Below, piece by piece: positions 9,075 to 62,745 of a stretch of 64,000 nt of DNA (position 1 is its first letter; the number at the start of each line of letters is the position of its first letter). The stretch is from Thermococcus zilligii AN1. GTDB taxonomy: Archaea; Methanobacteriota_B; Thermococci; Thermococcales; Thermococcaceae. The position numbers and the translations under genes are program-made. Where the stretch lies: the NCBI RefSeq assembly GCF_000258515.1, contig NZ_AJLF01000001.1, positions 434,001 through 498,000 of the forward strand. The letters are read 5' to 3'. The notes under the pieces are model-generated. The model worked only from the letters and a program-made list of their open reading frames with translations. It was not told where the DNA came from and ran no database searches.

Positions 9075-9262
9075 GGCCTTCCTTCAACCAGCACGTTGAC
9101 GAGCTTGGGTTTTTTCTATCTTTCGCGTGGCAACCTGCGACCTCCCGCTGGCAATCCCCAAGGGGGGATGGAGCACGAAGCCCGGTTCGAGGAGCTTTTG
9201 ACCGGCGGGTCGGGGGTCGTAAGGTTTATCTGGAGAAAATGGTGTATACGTGTGGTGGTACC

Positions 9263-9571
9263 ATGCTTGCCAAATACCCCTTTGAGCTCCCGAAGGACAG
9301 GCCACTGACCAGGACAGAGATAGCGCAGGCCCTCCGCTGGGCGATTGAGGCGGAGCTCGATGCGATAAACCTCTACGAACAGCTCGCGGCGGGAATTGAA
9401 GACGAGAGGATAAAGCACATCTTCCTCGATGTCGCCAACGAGGAGAAGGAGCACTTTGGCGAGTTCCTCGCGGCACTCTTTGAGGTTGACGAGGAGCTTG
9501 CAAAGCACATGAAGGAAGGCTTTGAGGAAGTTGAGGAGGAGACGGGGATAAAGGTGAATTTCTCAAAGTAA
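9263..9571 (+). CDS. Stand-alone encapsulated-ferritin-like (EncFtn) protein
   Basis: A 102-residue two-helix ferritin-like protein. The region TRTEIAQALRWAIEAELDAI with NLYEQ, and the following helix with DVANEEKEHFGEFL, match by memory the N-terminal cargo domain of the P. furiosus encapsulin (ferritin-encapsulin fusion). Ligands Glu31, Glu61 and His64 fall one residue from Glu32, Glu62 and His65 of the Rhodospirillum EncFtn, and Tyr38 is also kept. EncFtn subunits form a decamer with shared ferroxidase centres and feed iron into an encapsulin shell. Here no shell domain follows: the gene stops after GIKVNFSK, with no obvious cargo peptide. ATG 9263 is preceded by GGTGGT; a TATA element lies near 9223. 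Confidence 0.8.
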   Translation: MLAKYPFELPKDRPLTRTEIAQALRWAIEAELDAINLYEQLAAGIEDERIKHIFLDVANEEKEHFGEFLAALFEVDEELAKHMKEGFEEVEEETGIKVNFSK

Positions 9572-58841: not shown

Positions 58842-59957
58842 TCAGCAGTTGTAGCACAGCATCGCGGCCTTTTTGAGGAGCAGGACGCGGTAGAGCTTGC
58901 CGTTGATTATCCGCGCGTTGGATATCTTGTTGAGGTGGTGTACCCTCTTCCGCTCGAGGGCTATGAGGTCAAGCTCGCGGAGAACCTTCACGAAGTCCTC
59001 CCAGCGGATTTTGAGCCAGCTGGAGTAGTAGTCGAAAAGCTCCTTCTCCACGACGCGGTAGGTCTTCCCGTCCACCCTGTAACGGATTGCCTTTTTTGGA
59101 AGCTCCTTCCTGAGGCGCCAGCGCGCGTGGAGTGGTTCCTGCATCTCGTAAACAGCTTCCTCCATGCCCTTCCCTTCCACCATCATCTTGAGGAGTATTC
59201 CGAGGATCCTGTTTATCCTGTCCGGGACGCCTATGACGTCGCCTCTGAGGACAATCTTCCGCCGGCGAACCCTTATTCCAGCGCTCTCCAGCTCCTCCCC
59301 TATCTTAGGGGTCAGCTTTTTCTCCCCGCCCATGTCCACTATTCCCCCGATTATGAAGGCCCTGACGTCGAAGTCCTTCTCGCTCAAAACCTCCTCGGCC
59401 CAGGGGTCGAGGAGGACGACCTCTTCTATTTTCTTCTCCCTCAGGAACTCTGCCGTTGGGCCTTCGTAGACGGTTAACCTGTCGAGGGGGCCGTTGAAGG
59501 TCTTTCTGAACTCCTCGCCGGCCCAGGTGACGGCAAGCTCGCTCCCCGTGAAGTAATCCTTCAGCAGGCCATAGCTCTGGTTGACCTGGAAGCAGAGCTT
59601 GCCCTTCTCCTTCTGGGTGTGCCCGTCCCAGAGCTGGAGGTCGATTATGAAGTACGGCCAGCTTGGCAGCCTTGAGCGGAGTTCTTCCGGCGTGAGAACC
59701 GGCTCGAATTTATCCATCATGCAGAGCGGGGCGTAGGCGTAATAGGAGCCCTCGACGCGCTTTCCGCTGAGATCCCAGGCCACCGCAGTCTTCTCCGGGA
59801 TCCTGAAGATTGCCCCTTTCCCGTGGACTATCTCGACCGCCATGTCCTGGAGCCTGTTCTTTGAGTTCCGGAACCTCTTTGACAGGGTCCCTACGCTCTC
59901 AACGCCCTTCTCCCTGAGAACTCCCCTGAACACATCGGCGAGCGTCATCATGGCCAT
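58842..59957 (-). CDS. tRNA m1A9/m1G9 methyltransferase, archaeal Trm10 type
   Basis: A 371-residue protein resembling the T. kodakarensis Trm10 enzyme that methylates N1 of A9 or G9 in tRNA. The SPOUT core lies around residues 170-290: VVLLDPWAEEVLSEKDFDVR, AFIIGGIVDMGGEKKLTPKI, GIRVRRRKIVLRGDVIGVPD and RINRILGILLKMMVEGKGME, with the knot-forming SAM loop. N- and C-terminal extensions probably bind tRNA. Start codons at 59957, 59951 and 59948 are all possible; a TATA (minus strand, about 59978-59990) makes the mRNA nearly leaderless. Confidence 0.82.
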   Translation of the reverse strand: MAMMTLADVFRGVLREKGVESVGTLSKRFRNSKNRLQDMAVEIVHGKGAIFRIPEKTAVAWDLSGKRVEGSYYAYAPLCMMDKFEPVLTPEELRSRLPSWPYFIIDLQLWDGHTQKEKGKLCFQVNQSYGLLKDYFTGSELAVTWAGEEFRKTFNGPLDRLTVYEGPTAEFLREKKIEEVVLLDPWAEEVLSEKDFDVRAFIIGGIVDMGGEKKLTPKIGEELESAGIRVRRRKIVLRGDVIGVPDRINRILGILLKMMVEGKGMEEAVYEMQEPLHARWRLRKELPKKAIRYRVDGKTYRVVEKELFDYYSSWLKIRWEDFVKVLRELDLIALERKRVHHLNKISNARIINGKLYRVLLLKKAAMLCYNC

Positions 59958-60049
59958 CGAGTGGGGCTTGACAGGGGGGTTAAAAAGGTTGCCGTTGGAG
60001 CAATGGCAATCCTTTTAACGCCGGAACCCGAATTTGTCGGGGGTTGAAA

Positions 60050-60331
60050 ATGCGTGGCGAACTTATCCGGGTTCTGAGCGAAATCGAAGAAAAGGCCAAC
60101 GAGCTCAAACTGGACGGCTATAACCCGGACGTCGTCATAACGGGCAGAGAGGCCTACGAGTTCGTGAAAACCCTGGTAAACGAGGAGTTTGGCGGAGACG
60201 AAGAACTGTTAGAGCTATCCGGGTTGAAGGTCAGAGTAGTGGATGAGCTCGGAGGGGACGCGCTGATAATGGACAGCCAGGCGGCGGGCTATGAGGCCAG
60301 AGCAATCAGGAGGATAAAAGTCGTCAGATAA
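60050..60331 (+). CDS. DUF1884 protein: family-4 (A-domain) encapsulin
   Basis: A 93-residue protein nearly colinear with P. furiosus PF0899 (DUF1884, structure known): MRGELIRVLSEIEEKANELK, LDGYNPDVVITGREAYEFV, LKVRVVDELGGDALIMDSQA and the final RRIKVVR. This family is classed as truncated HK97-fold encapsulins consisting of the A-domain only. Whether they assemble into shells is not established. Family-4 genes often lie beside a sugar-metabolism enzyme or hydrogenase; here the neighbours are Trm10 (divergent) and a CitG-like protein (convergent). ATG 60050 follows GGGGGTTGAAA; TATA cctttTAAcg near 60012. Confidence 0.82.
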   Translation: MRGELIRVLSEIEEKANELKLDGYNPDVVITGREAYEFVKTLVNEEFGGDEELLELSGLKVRVVDELGGDALIMDSQAAGYEARAIRRIKVVR

Positions 60332-61241
60332 CGCCCCAGACCTTTCCATTCCTCGTTTCAAGCTTCAGCCCCTTGAAAGCCAGCAGGCTCAGCGACACCG
60401 CCATCACATCGGCCAAGCTGCCGGGGTTCCTCAGATCTCCCCTCGCCCCCATGAATTCGTCGAAGGCCTTCTCGCTCAGCTTGCCCTCAAGCACCTCGCC
60501 GGCCTTTTTCATTACGAGTACTGCCTCCTCCCTGCCGGCTTTCCGCTCTATGAGGGTATCGACCCTGCTCGCGAGGAGCTCAAGAAAAGCCCTCCTCACG
60601 GCCTCTTCGAGGGGAAGCTCGGGCAAAAGCTCCTGAAGGCGGAAAAACGTGGAATAAGTCACCTCGTATCCACTGAGCCACTCGCAGAATATCAGCTCCC
60701 GTTCGCAGCTTATCCCGGCGAGCCTTAAGAGGTTCACGTTGTCATCGAAGAGCTCCCTAAAGGAATCGTCGCTGTAAACGTCGTACTTGACCCCTCTTGC
60801 TATTCCCTTGGGGTTCGCTATCCTTATGGCCCTGTAAAGCTCCACCGTGTCCCCGACGGTCGATTCACCCATCAGCAGGGGTATTTTCTTTCTGGCCTCC
60901 AGGACGTCCCCCGACATGGAGAGGGCGATTATAAGGGGAACTGAGAGCGTTACCACGCCAAAGTTGGGGTTTGCGTCCTGGAAAGTCCTCGAAGACTCAA
61001 CGGCCCTTCTGATGAGTTCGCCGATCCCGGCATCGCCCGGCCTAAGCAGGCCCCTCCCGATGAGCTCACCGACCTTTGCCGCCTCGTAATAAACCCCGGC
61101 GACCGCCGTGTCCGCGAAGAGGAAATGGTAAAAGGTCAGGTCACTGAAATCCCTGAACCTGCTGACGTTGCCGGGTTTTGGGACGGCCGCTTCAAGCAGC
61201 GGGCCCAGGAGGAACGCCCTTACCGTTTCCCACCTGCCCAT
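60324..61241 (-). CDS. Triphosphoribosyl-dephospho-CoA synthase (CitG)-like protein
   Basis: A 305-residue CitG/MdcB family protein: LLEAAVPKPGNVSRFRDFSD (nucleotide-binding PKPGNVS), DANPNFGVVTLSVPLIIAL, and the C-terminal ARGDLRNPGSLADVMAVSL. In bacteria it makes the prosthetic group of citrate or malonate lyase; archaea with this gene lack those lyases, so the true product is unknown. It is the last of four minus-strand genes (PspC, small membrane protein, CitG-like) and overlaps the DUF1884 stop. Confidence 0.88.
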   Translation of the reverse strand: MGRWETVRAFLLGPLLEAAVPKPGNVSRFRDFSDLTFYHFLFADTAVAGVYYEAAKVGELIGRGLLRPGDAGIGELIRRAVESSRTFQDANPNFGVVTLSVPLIIALSMSGDVLEARKKIPLLMGESTVGDTVELYRAIRIANPKGIARGVKYDVYSDDSFRELFDDNVNLLRLAGISCERELIFCEWLSGYEVTYSTFFRLQELLPELPLEEAVRRAFLELLASRVDTLIERKAGREEAVLVMKKAGEVLEGKLSEKAFDEFMGARGDLRNPGSLADVMAVSLSLLAFKGLKLETRNGKVWGVI

Positions 61242-61472
61242 TCACACCACCAGGTACAGCAGGAGGTACACAATGTAGAGGAAAACGACGACCTTCCGGA
61301 GGGTTCTTTTTGTCAGGAGGTAGGAGCCGGCCGCGAGGAGGGTCACTCCCCCCAGGGAGTTTCTTATGGCCTCCCTGTACGGCTCGAGCCAGGTCAGGAA
61401 GTCCGGTCTGAGCTCCCTCACCAGGAGCAGCAGGCCGAGGAGGATAAGGACAACCCCAGCGGTTCTCCCCAT
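61242..61472 (-). CDS. Small membrane protein downstream of pspC
   Basis: A 76-residue protein with two or three hydrophobic helices (AGVVLILLGLLLLVREL, LGGVTLLAAGSYLL, VVVFLYIVYLLLYLVV). It resembles half of a LiaF/DUF5668-type transmembrane unit and the C-terminal helices of the PspC protein encoded just upstream. ATG 61472 has GGTGGCTGAG in front; the pspC stop lies within this site. No function can be given beyond a likely link to PspC. Confidence 0.7.
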   Translation of the reverse strand: MGRTAGVVLILLGLLLLVRELRPDFLTWLEPYREAIRNSLGGVTLLAAGSYLLTKRTLRKVVVFLYIVYLLLYLVV

Positions 61473-61473
61473 C

Positions 61474-61908
61474 TCAGCCACCCCGGAGGAGCAGGATGAC
61501 CCCGATGGCCAGGAGCAGGAGCGCCACGAGCTTGCTGAACAGCGGGACCCTGAAGATGAAGAACAGCGGGATTGCGAAGGCCACCAGGTAAAGGACGCCT
61601 AAGAGTATGAGGATTATCGCAACGGCCTTTATGAGGTCGTTCTTTTCACCGCCGGAGATGACCCTCTCCACTTCCTTCGTCACGTCGTTGAGCCTCTCCT
61701 CGACGGGCTTCTCCCCTTCGCCCTCCTCAGGGATCACGAGGGCGGCGAGGAAGTAGAGGAGGGCCATCGCAACCGGCTGGAAGACCAGGAGGACGACGAA
61801 GATGAGTCTCACCAGGGCCGGGTCAATGTCAAGGTACTCAGCCAAGCCACCAAGGACACCCAGGAACATGCGGTTCTTCTTTGAGCGAAAGAGCCTCTTG
61901 CTCTCCAT
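61474..61908 (-). CDS. PspC domain membrane protein
   Basis: A 144-residue protein with an N-terminal PspC domain (MFLGVLGGLAEYLDIDPALV, then RLIFVVLLVFQPVAMALLYF) and two further C-terminal helices (AVAIILILLGVLYLVAFAIP, LVALLLLAIGVILLL), linked by an acidic segment. PspC proteins sense membrane stress in bacteria; in archaea the role is undefined. ATG 61908 follows GGTGAGCTGG. It shares a TATA-containing 55-bp region with the GC-rich segment to the right. Confidence 0.85.
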   Translation of the reverse strand: MESKRLFRSKKNRMFLGVLGGLAEYLDIDPALVRLIFVVLLVFQPVAMALLYFLAALVIPEEGEGEKPVEERLNDVTKEVERVISGGEKNDLIKAVAIILILLGVLYLVAFAIPLFFIFRVPLFSKLVALLLLAIGVILLLRGG

Positions 61909-61959
61909 CCAGCTCACCGCCATATGCTGGGCAAGGTGCTTATTAAAGTTTCAGTGGTG

Positions 61960-62333: not shown

Positions 62334-62682
62334 TTTCCAAAGTTTCTTCACTAGTCCTGAAACGTACAGGACGACAGAGTAATAAACCACCCATCAGAAC
62401 TCAAGGTTTTCTTTCCAAAGTTTCTTCACTAGTCCTGAAACATCCCGGTAGAGGTCAGGAAGGAGGTCCTCGGGTATGTGCCGTTTCCAAAGTTTCTTCA
62501 CTAGTCCTGAAACGGAAAAAGTACAGTCGGATCCGGATTTGAAAAGGTTTGTCGAGGCCCTCCGGAGGGAGGGCTTCGAGTTTCCAAAGTTTCTTCACTA
62601 GTCCTGAAACCTCCCGACGACGGGAAGTTTCCCTGAGGCCCTCTGGAGCGGGTTTCCAAAGTTTCTTCACTAGTCCTGAAAC
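62334..62682 (-). CRISPR. CRISPR array: five identical 30-bp repeats, four spacers
   Basis: Repeats at 62334-62363, 62412-62441, 62484-62513, 62581-62610 and 62653-62682 are identical. On the minus strand they begin GTTTCAGGACTAGTG and end CTTTGGAAA, the GTTTC...GGAAA frame seen in Thermococcales. Spacers are 48, 42, 67 and 42 bp; the 67-bp one is exceptional. Decay of repeats at the low-coordinate end and a TATA on the high-coordinate side both place the leader at 62683 upward and transcription on the minus strand. No cas gene is in the window. Confidence 0.97.
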
Positions 62683-62745
62683 CATAGACTTTTTCGCCCT
62701 GTCGGGCAAATAAAGTAAAGACAAACCCCTATATAAGCTTTTCGC
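62683..62745 (-). promoter_or_regulatory. CRISPR leader-proximal promoter
   Basis: Minus-strand TATA element aaaagcttaTATAgggg (62729-62745) about 50 bp before the first repeat, placing transcription start near 62707. The sequence between is A/T-rich and ends in a small hairpin (GCCCGACAGGGC, 62696-62707). Together with the adjoining non-coding DNA this is the leader. Confidence 0.65.

Follow-up and report, generated by a model that had tools for sequence, protein, structure and literature searches.

A family 4A A-domain protein gene of Thermococcus zilligii AN1, apart from its usual upstream neighbours and preceded by a promoter-like element

The window analysed here is a stretch of 64,000 nucleotides from the genome of Thermococcus zilligii AN1. 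It carries a gene for a small HK97-type A-domain protein of family 4A, hereafter 4A, with the following features in and around it.

58842 to 59957, minus strand: Trm10 tRNA methyltransferase gene, divergent from 4A (NF041140, 658.9 bits, cut-off 550)
60007 to 60018, plus strand: putative BRE/TATA-like element, CAATCCTTTTAA, its TATA part 37 nt before the ATG, agreeing with the consensus at 8 of 10 positions
60039 to 60043, plus strand: G-rich stretch at the distance of a ribosome-binding site, a candidate from the letters
60050 to 60331, plus strand: 4A gene, 93 codons (Pfam, NCBIfam and 2pk8 matches)
60324 to 61241, minus strand: CitG-like gene, convergent with 4A and overlapping its 3' end by 8 nt (PF01874, 159.3 bits, cut-off 27)
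61242 to 61481, minus strand: gene for a small membrane protein, LiaI-like by its relatives (no Pfam match of its own; the representative of its cluster 4 matches PF18917)
61474 to 61923, minus strand: gene for a PspC-domain protein, likewise a usual neighbour (PF04024, 78.9 bits; cluster 2)

The layout is thus as the preliminary description had drawn it, a single gene between a divergent tRNA methyltransferase and a convergent, overlapping CitG-like gene. To the right of the PspC gene, at 62334 to 62688, and close to it lie five near-identical 30-nt repeats (TTTCCAAAGTTTCTTCACTAGTCCTGAAAC), CRISPR-like and at a spacing of 72 to 97 nt.

The frame, which starts with ATG, is a real gene and is correctly named as that of a family 4A A-domain protein. 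Its product exceeds the curated cut-offs of both Pfam ENCP4 (PF08967; 98.1 bits, cut-off 31.4) and NCBIfam encap_f4a (NF041190; 151.3 bits, cut-off 90), scores just 39.7 bits with encap_f4b, and matches PF0899 of Pyrococcus furiosus (PDB 2pk8) over residues 2 to 93 (phmmer E 3.2e-26), which confirms the family 4 identity and the closeness to PF0899 first read from the letters. With 93 residues it has the size of family 4A proteins (about 100 residues, A-domain only), and it lacks the complete HK97 fold of a functional encapsulin. Nor does it have an enzyme directly upstream in an operon, Trm10 being divergent, although membership of the sequence family does not require one; PF0899, the same in family and fold, is filed as a hydrogenase type in PMC8346489, whereas no hydrogenase gene adjoins the gene in the window. 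The closest relative, genome G020, encodes a 4A protein 92% identical to that of the window, and in this one pair dN/dS is 0.117 for 4A (7 nonsynonymous and 15 synonymous differences), 0.114 for IleRS, 0.125 for the ATPase, 0.132 for Trm10, 0.092 for CitG and 0.190 for PspC. The gene is under purifying selection in this pair, at a ratio like that of IleRS. A pseudogene or decaying remnant is ruled out by the intact frame together with this ratio from the single pair.

An AlphaFold model of the protein, built with 8 sequences and of moderate confidence (mean pLDDT 67, with one weak C-terminal stretch), aligns with 2pk8 at Z 11.9, as expected of an HK97 A-domain-like fold. By title, the other 49 structures listed are phage capsids or heads, encapsulins and one phage-related protein (Z 5.1 to 7.3), and the capsid entries align with 4A in their A-domain part; they had been pre-ranked by Foldseek, with only 2pk8 at E below 0.001 and unrelated proteins also present, and Z below 8 is not proof. 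Given these limits, the probable link to HK97 rests mainly on 2PK8 and on the published analysis (PMC8346489). Family 1 encapsulins (PF04454) share the A-domain (residues 145 to 267 of 3dkt, for example, align with 4A at Z 6.2) but have the full HK97 fold; they occur in 10 of the 94 Thermococcales genomes, and none was found in the window genome. PMC8346489 proposes that 4A assembles into facets around an enzyme or encloses it in closed shells, and both the capsid A-domain-like fold (Z 11.9 with 2pk8, up to 7.3 with HK97-type chains) and the complex of GAPDH with a 4B protein in P. furiosus, which the same paper cites, speak for such a nanocompartment. However, the A-domain is all that 4A possesses, the protein is described there as a dimer in the 2PK8 crystal, and its adjacency to any partner is unstable, as detailed below, so that we hold a true nanocompartment to be quite improbable.

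The presence of a family gene in the window genome is not a matter of chance. At E <= 0.001 the family was matched in 92 of 94 Thermococcales genomes and in all 74 near-complete ones, as a rule in two copies, and a scan of the genome contigs confirmed at least seven loci. Among the 115 genomes of the phylum all 92 with a match are Thermococcales, and none of the 21 genomes from other orders has one; this search covered the one phylum, and the bacterial members named in PMC8346489 lie outside it. We scored 121 copies, each of which matched one of the two queries far better than the other: 86 of 4A, namely the window gene and 85 loci, among the matches listed, whose match began at profile position 1, and 35 of 4B, chosen by hand among the matches listed rather than at random.

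Comparison of the 86 listed 4A loci, in which truncated contigs were scored as misses and reading frames were called mechanically, some with starts too long, shows that the two sides of the gene behave differently. Downstream, 76 of the loci have a convergent CitG-like gene no more than 60 nt away, and nearly all rows listed show it overlapping 4A by 8 to 17 nt; of the ten loci lacking it so close, nine belong to genus g3, including L041, which is cut by a contig end, and in the tenth, L114, CitG is farther off. Upstream, a same-strand OsmC gene lies within 4 kb in 59 loci (within 250 nt in 22), MarC within 300 nt in 34, the c16 family in 12, the hydrogenase alpha subunit in 7, all of them among the nine g3 loci, and Trm10 in 2, the window and G020. 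The neighbourhood that had been called atypical is therefore atypical on its upstream side only, the downstream side being the usual one. We take g3 to be Pyrococcus, since, by eye, only 2 residues distinguish the 4A protein of its genome G008 from PF0899. In G008 (L036, 6807 to 8894) three opposite-strand frames fill a gap of about 2.6 kb between the hydrogenase alpha gene and 4A, and a simple hydrogenase-4A operon therefore fails there. The c16 frames, of about 280 to 300 aa, stand directly upstream of 4A in L040, L046, L053, L054, L060, L076, L090, L091, L093, L099, L102 and L109, and the 211-aa representative of the family has no Pfam match. An 'Orphan/Unknown' class is already listed in the defining paper (PMC8346489).

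The constancy of the downstream side might mean that the actual partner of 4A in function is the convergent CitG-like gene, as its position in 76 of 86 loci and its regular overlap would suggest. Against this, it is not beside 4A in the nine g3 loci, and overlapping 3' ends would be hard to split without damage to a gene, which would account for the pairing without any shared function. We regard a CitG partnership as very improbable.

On the upstream side, the genes that usually precede 4A have been kept elsewhere in the window genome: an aminotransferase, a C26 peptidase, a radical-SAM protein, OsmC and MarC lie together at about 669 to 673 kb, and 4A lies at 494 kb of the same contig. This OsmC-MarC island is intact at a distance of 176 kb from 4A, and in G020 it is found at 620 to 624 kb with 4A at 921 kb, about 300 kb away. 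The two genomes are sisters on the CitG tree with a support of 100, and since both retain an intact, distant island, the break adjoins 4A and predates their split. The window locus thus resembles the OsmC-type loci of PMC8346489 in that its 4A gene is an orthologue of theirs and is faced by the same convergent CitG-like gene; it differs from them in having OsmC and MarC 176 kb off. The unusual neighbourhood of the window gene is explained by this past rearrangement. The preliminary description was to be taken as refuted if most relatives kept an enzyme partner next to the gene and this genome was simply rearranged; that is largely the case, with OsmC within 4 kb in most of the loci and here beside MarC at a distance. 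Over the 74 loci scored on the CitG protein tree (59 with OsmC, 15 without), OsmC adjacency changed at least 7 times, on a quick tree with many weakly supported branches and by a count that cannot separate gain from loss; L042, L044 and L051, which have less than 4 kb of upstream sequence and no OsmC match, were left unscored on the tree and are misses among the 86. Comparison with relatives suggests that 4A was never strictly tied to its usual neighbours, and this loose tie makes it less credible that every copy encloses the enzyme encoded beside it.

It could still be that the window 4A binds or packages OsmC as a dedicated cargo now encoded 176 kb away. The proximity of OsmC in 59 of 86 listed loci and the retention of OsmC and MarC in both the window genome and G020 would agree with this, but the adjacency has changed repeatedly, 7 of the 9 g3 loci pair with a hydrogenase instead, OsmC matches are common elsewhere in these genomes and also turn up in 12 of 14 control genomes that lack the family, and OsmC is directly upstream, within 250 nt, in only 22 of 86 loci. 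The C-termini of OsmC proteins linked and unlinked to 4A are alike by eye and speak neither way on cargo. A dedicated OsmC cargo in trans therefore appears improbable to us.

The region before 4A itself points to separate transcription. The 4A upstreams show an A-rich stretch, then TTTTAA, CTTAAA, TTTTTA or similar, then in most loci GGTG, and finally the start codon. When each neighbour class was scored with a motif learned from at most 40 loci of the other classes, 75 of the 86 loci scored above the 95% level of dinucleotide shuffles, with passes in every class (MarC 27/34, OsmC 18/21, c16 12/12, HydA 7/7, DHH 3/3, Trm10 2/2, other 6/7). Measured against a 10-position BRE/TATA consensus taken from the primary transcriptome of T. 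onnurineus (PMC5316973), 62% of the 86 loci agreed at 9 or more positions versus 6% of shuffles, and 81% versus 27% at 8 or more; in the 70 loci at 8 or better the TATA part lies 37 to 39 nt from the ATG (interquartile range). At 9 of 10 the share is 100% of the 21 OsmC loci and of the 3 DHH loci, 65% of 34 for MarC, 57% of 7 for other neighbours, 43% of 7 for HydA, none of the 12 c16 loci, and neither of the 2 Trm10 loci, each of these two reaching 8. The element of the window, which recurs in G020, belongs to the Trm10 class, and shuffles of this class reach 8 in 32%. A wider upstream interval gave 54 of 86 loci at 9 of 10 versus 8.3% of shuffles.

Control genes, with start codons picked by script, set bounds on these numbers. 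None of the 4B, HydA, Hyd46, Hyd47, LiaI or PspC genes reached 9 of 10 and 7% of MarC genes did; the same level was reached by none of the divergent OsmC and GAPDH genes, for which promoters are expected, and by 28% of rSAM, 48% of ECF, 85% of DeoC and 28% of CitG genes, so that the consensus test is neither fully sensitive nor fully specific. A motif trained on the regions before OsmC and rSAM fixed on another conserved stretch; only 5 of 86 4A loci passed it, and it was set aside, after its result, as a failed training set. We do not rely on a relaxed count of TATA-like sequences (92% of 4A versus 19% of shuffles), because the operon-internal Hyd47 (100%) and MarC (93%) pass it too.

With these bounds, 4A genes in general seem to be transcribed from a promoter of their own, and the element of the window would be a working one. 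Since the element recurs behind upstream genes of different kinds, among them hydrogenase and OsmC, adjacency to an enzyme is weak evidence of a dedicated cargo for 4A. A gene with a promoter of its own could still be co-transcribed with its neighbour, or its product could form a complex with that of the neighbour, and the many loci that still keep OsmC within 4 kb speak against 4A as a unit of its own. The earlier suggestion, read as a role other than the packaging of a neighbour, gains indirect support from the promoter-like element and is unproven. Taking these observations together, we consider the window 4A likely to be an ordinary gene of vertical descent, transcribed as a unit of its own and separated from the OsmC-MarC island through rearrangement.

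The second family copy of the window genome (G000:C2:268172-268399; encap_f4b, 134.4 bits) is a 4B gene directly behind DeoC. It belongs to the same Pfam family as 4A, and 14 positions are conserved across the two branches. All 26 listed 4B loci of the DeoC type overlap DeoC as called, by 4 to 23 nt, and none reaches 9 of 10 on the consensus, whereas 4A stands separate and mostly has the element. Seven 4B genes instead follow GAPDH (L127, L128, L129, L144, L145, L147 and L149), at a spacing of 48 to 70 nt and with TATA-like sequence, so that this one branch has two layouts; 5 of the 7 reach 9 of 10, but so do 26% of their shuffles, and this evidence is weak because the background is AT-rich. 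For L148 and L152 neither DeoC nor GAPDH was assigned upstream. The comparison suggests that the two branches are wired differently, with 4B coupled to DeoC and 4A free. To our knowledge, printed evidence of a partner exists for 4B and for no 4A protein; the 4B evidence is the GAPDH complex of P. furiosus as cited in PMC8346489. A literature search, with most subscription journals outside its reach, found no experimental study of family 4 proteins.

The upstream neighbour of 4A is not fixed, and the gene is conserved order-wide. We propose that the rearrangement which separated 4A from the OsmC-MarC island probably preceded the split of the window genome from G020, that the enzyme upstream would adjoin 4A without being tied to it in an obligate operon, and that the 4A protein would work in trans. 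It may self-associate through A-domain faces and form small oligomers that scaffold or stabilise soluble client proteins; we prefer such a scaffold to a closed shell because 4A has only the A-domain, and we put it forward as a tentative possibility. More broadly, though still short of an even chance, 4A could be an independently transcribed housekeeping protein of the whole order that arose when a capsid A-domain was captured and that serves general clients in trans, rather than an enzyme-dedicated encapsulin, in which case the published 'operon types' (hydrogenase, OsmC) would reflect inherited gene order and not cargo. A function unrelated to assembly, in which a small regulatory or ligand-binding protein reuses the fold, would also sit well with the universality of the 4A/4B family in near-complete genomes, with a promoter-like element of its own and no fixed partner, and with the 14 shared positions; against it, no ligand or nucleic-acid motif was recognised, albeit outside any dedicated motif search, and we think this reading somewhat unlikely. 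The functions proposed for 4A rest largely on the identity of the upstream enzyme. If a gene with its own promoter was repeatedly parted from that enzyme and the protein was nevertheless kept, enzyme-based assignments for 4A need direct tests, for which the window genome and G020 are natural cases.

The preliminary description had also drawn attention to an EncFtn-like gene in the same stretch. The gene exists (9239 to 9571, plus strand; PDB 5n5e, PFC_05175, E 1.1e-25; EncB_fam 74.5 bits, below the cut-off of 90), but nothing marks it as a special partner of 4A: no tie between the two was seen, and their co-occurrence is uninformative because both are near-universal, an EncFtn-like match (E <= 0.001) being present in 87 of 94 Thermococcales genomes and in all 74 near-complete ones. 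No family 1 shell for its product was found in the window genome, which is 99.91% complete; the EncFtn-like ferritin thus stands free, with no family 1 encapsulin to accompany it, in an order where 87 of 94 genomes have the ferritin match and 10 of 94 the shell. In those ten shell-bearing genomes the best EncFtn match falls within a frame of 346 to 378 aa beside the shell match, and the EncFtn domain is therefore part of a fusion there.
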